Source of the DNA: Candidatus Berkelbacteria bacterium
GTDB lineage: Bacteria > Patescibacteriota > UBA1384 > JAGVHQ01
Direction of reading: 5' to 3'
DNA: 35,787 nt
Assembly: GCA_020056565.1 (NCBI GenBank)
Contig: JAGVHQ010000011.1
Span: 1 to 35,787 of the forward strand
Shown here: positions 1,583 to 2,484 of the stretch, piece after piece
Layout of the letters: every line of letters starts with the position of its first letter
How positions within the stretch are numbered: position 1 is the first letter of the stretch
Notes under the pieces: model-generated
What the model saw: the letters and a program-made list of their open reading frames with translations, nothing else
Told to the model about the DNA's origin: nothing
The model's database searches: none
Program-made: the position numbers and the translations under genes

Positions 1583-1626
1583 TCCTCCGTAGCTCTCCGC
1601 CAGCTGGCGGAGGTAGAGCGGCTCCC
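1583..1626 (+). pseudogene. tRNA-Asn 5'-half remnant with palindrome in the D loop
   Basis: A second copy of the first part of the tRNA-Asn gene at 1890. It shares the acceptor strand TCCTCCG, TA, D-stem GCTC, GGTA, D-stem GAGC, G and anticodon-stem strand GCTCC plus C32, then diverges exactly at tRNA position 33. The D loop is disrupted by the perfect 16-nt palindrome TCCGCCAGCTGGCGGA (1596-1611). No 3' half follows, so it cannot make a tRNA. The 6 nt before it (AATATT) also match the sequence before the intact copy, so the duplicated block is slightly longer than the tRNA part. It sits directly upstream of the GIY-YIG pseudogene, which is thereby flanked by direct repeats. Confidence 0.85.
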
Positions 1627-1643
1627 GATATAATATTTTTGAT

Positions 1644-1910
1644 ATGTTTTGGGTCTAGGCGATATATAACTCAGAGGCAGAAAAGTATTACATCGGGCAG
1701 ACTGATAATCTTCAGAAACGTTTACGGCTCCATAACAACCACGGGTTAGGCGGTTATACTTCAAGATTTGCGGGTGAATGGAAATTGATTCATAAAGAGT
1801 CAGTTGCCACTCGCTCGGAAGCTCTGGCAAGAGAAAAACAACTGAAGAGTTTCCGTGGCCGAGAGTTCATTAAGAAGAAATTACAATATTCCTCCGTAGC
1901 TCAATGGTAG
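1644..1910 (+). pseudogene. GIY-YIG endonuclease (UvrC-like N-terminal family), interrupted by TAG
   Basis: Reading from ATG 1644 gives MFWV, a TAG stop (1656-1658), then AIYNSEAEKYYIGQTDNLQK and on through a complete short GIY-YIG domain (AIY ... KYYIG, then QKRLRLHN, a GGYTSRF segment, and SEALAREKQLKSFRGREFIK) typical of single-domain proteins of about 80-90 residues. In relatives the TAG position is normally Tyr or another residue just before the GIY-like strand, so one base change (TAT/TAC to TAG) explains the break. No usable start codon follows before the catalytic motif. The frame runs into the 5' end of the intact tRNA-Asn and stops inside its D arm (1908-1910), so the last residues (YSSVAQW) are tRNA-encoded. 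It lies between two copies of the tRNA 5' half, suggesting a mobile or once-mobile nuclease associated with this tRNA. A leaky stop or sequencing error cannot be excluded. Confidence 0.75.
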
Positions 1911-2233
1911 AGCGGCTCCCTGTCGCGCAGCGACCCTGAGCGCAGTCGAAGGGTCCAAAAATGGCAGCTTCCCGCCGAAAGGCGGGTTGAAAAACGAGGT
2001 GAACTCGGGGAAACCCTTCTAGGGTAATCCCGAGCCAAGCCCGTCACTTTTTATAAAAGTGCCGAGGAAGGTGTAGAGACTATCTCGCAAGAGAGTACCC
2101 CGACGTTTCAGTTGGGGGAAGCGCCTCGCCCCTTACTTGTACAAAGTGTGGGGATGATATAGTCCACTCCCGTGGCAACATGGGGTTATGTGTAAGGAGA
2201 AGGTTGCTGGTTCGAGTCCAGCCGGAGGAGCCA
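1890..2233 (+). tRNA. tRNA-Asn(GUU) gene interrupted by a group I intron
   Basis: 5' exon 1890-1923: acceptor TCCTCCG, D arm GCTC-AATGGTA-GAGC, anticodon strand GCTCC, then C-T-G-T (positions 32-35). 3' exon 2193-2233: T-A-A (36-38), GGAGA, variable loop AGGTT, T arm GCTGG-TTCGAGT-CCAGC, acceptor CGGAGGA, discriminator G and an encoded CCA. Joining gives anticodon loop CTGTTAA, anticodon GTT, and a body with the usual tRNA-Asn features (TCC...GGAGCCA). The acceptor, D and T stems pair fully; the anticodon stem has 4 pairs and a G27-A43 mismatch at its base. The mature tRNA would be 75 nt with CCA. The intron falls inside the anticodon, between positions 35 and 36, so splicing is essential for decoding. 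It is the only intact copy among several fragments at this locus. Confidence 0.88.
1924..2192 (+). other. group I self-splicing intron (IC3-like) in tRNA-Asn
   Basis: 269 nt, obeying group I rules: the exon ends in U (1923) and the intron ends in G (2192). Visible core: P4 CTCGGG (2004-2009) with CCCGAG (2029-2034); P5 ACCCT/AGGGT around TCT (2013-2025); the J6-like CCGAGCCAAGCC (2030-2041); R element AGGTGTAGAGACTA (2069-2082); S element GATATAGTCC (2156-2165); and P7 pairing GACTAT (2078-2083) with ATAGTC (2159-2164). The GCCAAGC and AGGTGTAGAGACTA strings match my recollection of the Azoarcus tRNA-Ile intron. P1 can form between exon CTGT and GCAG at 1927-1930 or 1964-1967, with U.G at the splice site. 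A palindromic repeat (1932-1955) sits in the P1/P2 region, and a hairpin CCCGCC-GAAA-GGCGGG at 1971-1986 resembles P2. No ORF inside; it would need no protein of its own. Confidence 0.88.
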
Positions 2234-2280: not shown

Positions 2281-2429
2281 GGACTGGACTCGAACAGGGA
2301 AAGGGGTCGGGAAAACGGGAGTTTTCCCGCTGCGGAAAGTAGCATTCCGATGCGCTGAGAACCGAGGGGTTCTCAGAAAGTCCTGAGCGTAGTCGAAGGA
2401 CGCGAGAGAGTCCACAGCCGGAGGAGCCA
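2281..2429 (+). repeat. tRNA-Asn remnants and palindromic repeats
   Basis: Non-coding block. At 2284-2295, CTGGACTCGAAC is the inverse complement of the tRNA-Asn T arm. At 2409-2429 a damaged copy of the tRNA 3' end is seen (AGTCCACAGCCGGAGGAGCCA, with an AC insertion compared with the intact gene). Between them are hairpins: GGGAAAAC-GG-GAGTTTTCCC (around 2310-2329), CTGAGAACC-GAGG-GGTTCTCAG (2356-2377) and a 22-nt CCTGAGC...GTCGAAGG-type palindrome (2380-2401) related to the one inside the intron (1932-1955). This appears to be debris of repeated duplication at a tRNA hot spot. No promoter or gene recognised here. Confidence 0.65.
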
Positions 2430-2484
2430 AACTTTTGAACCCGTGAATGACCTCGAATGAGGTTATTTTTGGTAAGGTGAGGGC

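Follow-up and report, generated by a model that had tools for sequence, protein, structure and literature searches.

What is a decayed nuclease gene doing between a broken and an intact copy of one and the same tRNA? The question is raised by a 35,787-nucleotide (nt) stretch of DNA from a Candidatus Berkelbacteria bacterium (contig JAGVHQ010000011.1 of assembly GCA_020056565.1; this whole stretch is called the window hereafter), in which a tRNA-Asn gene carrying a group I intron is preceded by a GIY-YIG nuclease frame and by a second copy of its own 5' half. We consider it likely that the window holds a small selfish element, now decayed, of a type that resides in tRNA genes. A first-pass annotation, made from the letters of the sequence, had placed a GIY-YIG gene between a broken 44-nt tRNA-Asn half and the intact tRNA, and every part of that arrangement was recovered (Table 1). 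Agreement between the two copies had been put at tRNA position 32 and was observed to stop at raw nt 31, which is about Sprinzl position 32 (tRNA positions below are raw counts unless Sprinzl is stated). It was also correct that the nuclease frame enters the tRNA and ends in its D arm; the frame continues into the tRNA without any gap, and its end codon, TAG at 1908-1910, lies in the D loop. The frame was matched by the profile PF01541 with 54.3 bits (E 1.1e-14) and the intron by the Rfam model RF00028 with 64.1 bits (E 3.4e-14). ARAGORN reported no tRNA at this tRNA-Asn, because the group I intron splits it. The nuclease gene itself is situated within or beside its target tRNA gene and outside any intron or intein.

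Table 1. Coordinates of the features at the tRNA-Asn locus of the window
Feature	Position	Strand	Remarks
Broken resident tRNA-Asn copy, nt 1-13 (acceptor and D 5' strands)	1583..1595	+	identical to 1890-1902
Palindrome TCCGCCAGCTGGCGGA inside the D loop of the broken copy, replacing 3 nt	1596..1611	.	perfect palindrome
Broken tRNA-Asn copy, second part, nt 17-31	1612..1626	+	identical to 1906-1920
TATAAT, candidate -10 box about 10 nt 5' of the nuclease ATG	1629..1634	+	by reading; similar motifs in several relatives
Decayed GIY-YIG nuclease frame	1644..1910	+	PF01541 match and translation
Intact tRNA-Asn(GTT) 5' exon, the restored half	1890..1923	+	by reading
Group I intron in the anticodon loop of tRNA-Asn	1924..2192	+	RF00028 at 1937-2185; exon borders by reading
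tRNA-Asn 3' exon with encoded CCA	2193..2233	+	by reading

In order to see how the nuclease is placed elsewhere, 61 genomes of the window's group were searched with it, and the returned loci (numbered with L; genomes are numbered with G) were examined together with 40 further rank-ordered stretches. The weakest-ranked rows lie outside this class sample, matches too near a contig end were set aside from the 74 that were scored, and L002, L004, L005 and L006, which are the window's own place or were chosen by DNA similarity, were left out of the counts. For the scan of the wider collection a narrower alignment (A2) was used, the first one (A1) being too diverse. The nuclease is a stand-alone gene of about 85-100 amino acids (aa); five relatives scored 48.6-60.6 bits with PF01541 (cut-off 22.6), and Y14, G16, R24, H28, E63 and K67, some of which are presumably catalytic, were invariant among 21 relatives. 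Intact units are present, for example, at L133, L134 and L182, the last of these a Flavobacterium relative. A same-strand tRNA began at most 200 nt downstream of 30 of the 74 scored matches, 8 more had a tRNA only upstream, and 36, including the window with its split tRNA, had no ARAGORN-visible tRNA; a tRNA on the opposite strand at most 400 nt downstream was found in 0 of 75 matches. At 16 of the 30 loci the sequence upstream strongly matched the locus's own downstream tRNA, mostly over its first 13-48 nt, as compared with 48 of 832 control pairings with the tRNAs of other loci. A chance repeat as the origin of the broken half was excluded by these pairing tests of own against other tRNAs. 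On a nuclease tree resting on 81 alignment columns, tRNA-linked and unlinked nucleases clustered separately (22 changes for the 5' form against a shuffled mean of 54).

The first-pass annotation had taken the broken half as such, and it is truly broken; the breaker, however, is not random decay but an inserted palindrome that had been overlooked. The same was seen widely after redundant loci, judged to be identical in sequence to a kept one (L104, L119, L122, L125, L126, L137, L149, L157 and L171), had been removed from the two-block, 47-locus and -10 box counts. Two blocks matching the locus's own tRNA with an insert between them were present at 63 of 91 loci, compared with 142 of 5456 pairings with the tRNAs of other loci, and among the 67 loci scoring at least 16 the insert had palindrome arms of at least 6 in 61, compared with 55 of 3350 random stretches. 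In tRNA-Asn the insert replaces 3 nt and stands between nt 13 and 17 in 27 loci and between nt 14 and 18 in 6; these 33 of the 67 scored loci, all tRNA-Asn, are the ones that use either site. Several tRNA-Lys units have the insert after GGTAGA, where it replaces 8 nt, and the remaining tRNAs show different sites and different palindromes; in L096 the palindrome stands where the anticodon arm should be, and in L105, L111 and L136 one palindrome is nested in another. The layout of a palindrome-split tRNA half, a GIY-YIG gene and an intact tRNA on one strand thus recurs at tRNA-Asn, and similar units with other palindromes and sites were found at tRNA-Lys, Met, Asp, Ser, Gln, Leu, Pro, Tyr and others.

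Short dispersed palindromes are known from repetitive extragenic palindromic (REP) sequences, which are associated with Y1 (RAYT) transposases, and it may be asked whether here, too, the palindromes are the mobile agents, as REP-like mini-elements that another enzyme moves and that break tRNA genes, so that only cells with a spare tRNA survive and the nuclease is a bystander or secondary settler. This explanation can draw on the sequence TCCGCCNGCNGGCGGA, of which the window's genome holds 12 copies. Around the remaining 11 no tRNA lies within about 500 nt, and some of these copies are located in other hairpins or open frames; the sequence is therefore a member of a dispersed repeat family. 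Some palindromic broken copies also lack a GIY-YIG gene before the tRNA, namely extra copies in L106, L110, L118 and L129 and the one in G081. On the other hand, when 379 genomes of the phylum were searched at the DNA level, blind to the nuclease, for a tRNA-Asn D arm split by the palindrome, 6 of them had it, one copy each, and all 6 copies directly precede a GIY-YIG gene by their coordinates; a fragment lacking the nuclease, which the first-pass annotation had regarded as a sign of chance association, was not among them. Movement of the palindrome by the window genome's own Y1 transposase appears unlikely, as the only Y1 gene found in that genome is flanked by a different palindrome, AAGGACACTTCCGAAGTGTCCTT (L188, 1274-1296 and 1980-2012), in the manner of a REP/RAYT pair. 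We regard palindromes as the prime movers as unlikely.

To learn which of the two copies is the older, -10 boxes were scored 8-35 nt before each. They were found before the broken copy at 38 of 71 loci and before the intact copy at 3 of 71, the level in random upstream stretches being 9%; the discordant loci numbered 37 (broken) to 2 (intact), with p 2.8e-9. Most likely, therefore, the broken copy occupies the original site with the original promoter, and the newcomer is the intact 5' half. A further set of 47 Asn loci was selected with a pattern that matches TCCGCC-like palindromes. In 40 of them the broken copy agreed fully with the local tRNA over nt 1-7 (10% of cross pairings); at least two of the seven imperfect left blocks (L107 and L145) are register errors of the selection pattern. 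The nuclease stop codon fell inside the tRNA in 40 of the 47, at nt 8-10, the tRNA's own TAG, in 33 and at nt 19-21, as in the window, in 7. The faithful nt 1-7, followed by a post-palindrome part that mostly goes unmatched, and the palindrome site fixed in the Asn clade could also be expected if the broken half with its hairpin were no scar but a working RNA part of the unit, a regulator or even a guide, kept by selection. A recent insertion or gene conversion also accounts for the nt 1-7 match, however; other clades have other sites and palindromes, and the broken copy of the window does not fold clearly better than its shuffles (z -1.4), so that a working RNA appears quite unlikely.

Mobility was evident from comparisons within three genera, which supplied the presence and absence at orthologous tRNA genes of related genomes that the first-pass annotation had proposed to look for. 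In the first genus, three complete genomes (G182, G059 and G081) share a tRNA-Thr/tRNA-Tyr neighbourhood. In G182 the site is empty, Thr and Tyr being 7 nt apart. In G059 the order is a Tyr half split by a palindrome, a nuclease frame holding one stop, another half likewise split by a palindrome, and an intact Tyr. G081 has its resident Tyr divided near nt 28-36, again with palindromes, and a complete tRNA-Tyr with a different acceptor stem lies between the two parts, no nuclease being detected at this Tyr locus. The second genus has a cluster of two tRNA-Met genes, the first called fMet-like by its neighbours alone, and a tRNA-Asp, which was readable in 7 of 8 genomes (G213 was not readable). 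An Asp unit was present in G249 and G317, while the second Met and Asp are 56 nt apart in G320, 124 in G319, 26 in G318 and 8 in G316; a unit stands at the second Met in G318 and at the first Met in G249. In the third genus, G216 has an Asn-clade nuclease at the orthologous tRNA-Asn and G164 has a GIY-YIG gene of a different lineage there; in G252 the tRNA is preceded by a nuclease remnant alone and followed by a broken copy with a palindrome. Since congeners thus have filled and empty orthologous tRNA sites, the unit is mobile, and the patterns are gains and losses at fixed sites. An empty counterpart of L008 was sought in its own family, where the flanks proved too diverged.

These comparisons also bear on a simpler account, in which slippage or unequal crossing-over duplicated part of the tRNA in tandem and a GIY-YIG gene of a common sort, lying there by chance, hitch-hiked along. 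Unit arrays do exist (L081 and L157, to which L146 is added as a further case of tandem units), and GIY-YIG genes are abundant in these genomes. Against this stand the strict orientation, the fixed palindrome site, the clade-specific tRNA, the empty sites in congeners and the substitute tRNA in G081, and we find tandem duplication decidedly improbable and largely refuted by the same-genus comparisons. In L146 (2705-3231) two GIY-YIG genes of different lineages precede one tRNA-Asn, each with its own palindrome-split fragment, and this locus is a record of successive invasions of one tRNA. The acceptors of the intact and the broken copy differ in L049 and L170 as well, so that in these loci and in G081 the intact tRNA looks like a replacement of foreign origin; within the Asn clade, the end that is supplied is the same as the local one.

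The intron in the same tRNA deserved separate attention, because the first-pass annotation had suggested that the nuclease was its former homing partner, which would since have moved out of it. Group I introns in tRNA genes were scored by Rfam in L079, L080, L085, L106, L132, L140, L152, L156 and the window, and those of L081, L109 and L135 are intron-like by eye and below the scoring threshold. The shared tRNA-Asn and the several Asn-clade loci that have both intron and nuclease speak for a partnership. Most Asn units, however, have no intron; in the third genus above, introns of one kind occur with two different GIY-YIG lineages (G216 and G164), and there is none beside the nuclease remnant of G252; and the first tRNA-Met of both G280 and G316 has an intron but no unit. 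The introns of L140 and L156, moreover, have a frame of their own right after CTGT, HNH-like by our reading of its sequence, so that one tRNA-Asn gene hosts two nuclease genes. Nor does the nuclease resemble the homing endonuclease gene of a group I intron, since it neither lies in the intron nor follows its distribution. It had further been remarked that the repeats end right beside the intron site. This holds for the window copy; the fresher broken copies of L134 and L164 extend beyond the intron site to nt 37, and the repeat end near it is therefore incidental. Intron and nuclease unit are separate tenants of one gene, and the former partnership is highly improbable. A second group I intron of the window's genome (79.8 bits) was found on the minus strand of L005 at 1429-1647, near tRNA-Thr and tRNA-Trp.

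The window's nuclease belongs to a clade of 69 rows (Shimodaira-Hasegawa-like approximate likelihood ratio support, SH-aLRT, 95), nearly all of them at tRNA-Asn; the exceptions are L095 at tRNA-Pro and L086 without a tRNA. The same clade and the same broken half thus stand at tRNA-Asn in many genomes, which bears out the earlier suspicion of a mobile nuclease tied to this tRNA. The host records of tRNA-Asn units name more than 20 candidate phyla, in a set chosen by Asn-clade similarity, whose Asn share is hence uninformative on frequency. In two sets not chosen in this way, tRNA identity was clustered on the tree (31 changes; shuffled mean 39, minimum 35). A mirror form, with the intact tRNA followed by the nuclease and a broken 3' copy, palindromes included, was found in Bacteroidota, Ignavibacteria, Chlorobiota and some Patescibacteria (L090, L093, L165, L169, L170, L173, L177, L179 and L182). 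In L169, L177 and L165 the palindrome breaks the T loop directly after GTTCGA. The cleavage motif of the phage nuclease SegB has been published as RAWTSGAAC (PMC13096335), and its reverse, GTTCSAWTY, is the T loop; by this resemblance, the T-loop palindromes would fit a palindrome that marks the cut. A virus was considered as carrier and rejected, with one weak relative (29% identity) among viral contigs. Altogether this looks like a widespread kind of element, at many tRNA genes and in dozens of bacterial groups.

A few further observations were made around the locus and in the same genome. Starting about 50 nt after the tRNA-Asn, window 2282-2430 contains an inverted T-arm copy (2284-2295), several hairpins including a CCTGAGCGnAGTCGAAGG palindrome, and a direct copy of the tRNA 3' end (2415-2429); it may be a second, non-coding element on the 3' side. 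In L011, L021, L022, L035 and L043, too, fragments of the 3' part of the tRNA are present downstream. The sequence CCTGAGCG(C/T)AGTCGAAGG occurs in two copies, at 1935-1952 in the group I intron and at 2382-2399 downstream. On contig C48 of the window's genome (L001), 93 nt after a tRNA-Ser(gct), lies another short GIY-YIG gene, whose frame is open and beside which no broken tRNA copy was found, and the third GIY-YIG match of this genome (L003) falls within a 479-aa frame.

The best reading of the locus is, in our opinion, probably that of a minimal free-standing homing element, which breaks a tRNA gene and then restores it. We infer that the stand-alone GIY-YIG nuclease cuts a specific tRNA gene inside its coding region, and that repair from an element-bearing donor would then insert the nuclease gene together with a fresh tRNA 5' half, so that the tRNA stays functional; in the mirror form, the part supplied would be a 3' half or an entire substitute tRNA. 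The old half would stay upstream with the original promoter, presumably disarmed by the short palindrome, and this promoter probably drives one transcript of broken half, nuclease and tRNA. As the nuclease frame usually stops on the tRNA's U8-A9-G10, an RNase P cut of the shared transcript would strip the stop codon from the message, and such processing would limit nuclease output. A bolder proposal may be made, whose chance of being right we put somewhat short of even: these units would form a class of minimal natural cleave-and-rescue elements that exchange tRNA genes in many bacterial phyla, in which a nuclease of 85-100 aa destroys an essential resident tRNA gene at a defined position, marks the broken copy with a hairpin against recutting, supplies a replacement half or a foreign tRNA, and is restrained in its output by the stop codon in the tRNA.

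Several points weigh against the homing element. For 35 of the 74 class-sample matches, the window not counted, the 200 nt to either side hold no same-strand tRNA; roughly half of the GIY-YIG genes in the sample lack a tRNA link, so not every member of the wider family is such a unit. A strong two-block match was absent from 28 of the 91 loci. When Asn was left out, tRNA identity was weakly clustered (28 changes against 30.5 shuffled, 29 of 500 shuffles being as low), and targets therefore switch more freely outside the Asn and Lys clades. After the palindrome, nt 26-31 of the broken copy were perfect to the local tRNA in 6 of the 47 Asn loci (0.3% of cross pairings); as the left block matches and the right mostly does not, the left is local and the right has decayed or was brought by the element. 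In the window itself, no -10 box was scored before either copy, and the nuclease gene is broken by one in-frame TAG at codon 5 (1656-1658), so its reading frame is not intact. The restored tRNA should itself be a target of the putative nuclease, and the origin of the palindrome is left unexplained by homing.

Among known systems, the synthetic cleave-and-rescue or home-and-rescue gene drives, which are engineered, RNA-guided and used in insects, share the logic that a nuclease disrupts an essential gene for which the cassette supplies a working copy. In nature, the phage T4/T6 protein SegB is a free-standing GIY-YIG homing endonuclease whose gene adjoins tRNA genes in many phages, and which cuts within tRNA genes and drives tandem amplification of tRNA and nuclease (PMC13096335). 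GIY-YIG domain and tRNA adjacency are the traits shared by both. SegB is phage-borne, whereas the present units lie on bacterial contigs, encode about 85-100 aa and are, in the Asn clade, mostly tied to one tRNA; the part of the SegB account at hand (PMC13096335) includes no palindrome-split tRNA half, stop codon in a tRNA or tRNA replacement. Mobile open reading frames (ORFs) of fungal mitochondria carry a duplicated, often foreign, C-terminal gene end, as in Allomyces atp6 and Glomus atp6, atp9, cox2 and nad3 (PMC3630166). There, too, an endonuclease gene sits in an essential gene, the supplied end restores function and the old end is a remnant; those targets are mitochondrial protein genes, whereas here they are bacterial tRNA genes, mostly duplicated at the 5' end and with a palindrome in the remnant. 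As in mobile ORFs, the nuclease gene is accompanied here by a duplicated target end with the old end as remnant, and, as in free-standing homing endonuclease genes, the unit is present or absent at orthologous sites. Finally, rRNA genes of the Candidate Phyla Radiation hold insertion sequences with GIY-YIG genes outside introns (PMC11270868), which likewise place GIY-YIG frames in genes for structural RNA in these bacteria; that text, as far as available, describes no target duplication and lacks the term tRNA. A full-text search restricted to open-licence papers returned no description of such tRNA units. The kind of element was apparently undescribed before, and there is a fair chance that the unit deserves a class of its own.

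tRNA genes are usually seen as passive landing sites. In the proposed reading, a tiny nuclease gene invades, breaks and repairs a tRNA gene, and within strongly streamlined genomes the tRNA is apparently exchangeable for another. Such an element would account for the small GIY-YIG genes beside Patescibacteria tRNA genes and for the tRNA fragments that often shadow them, and it offers nt 13-17 of tRNA-Asn as a concrete target site for a minimal nuclease. It would be a natural parallel to rescue-type gene drives and a possible route by which tRNA genes move between species.
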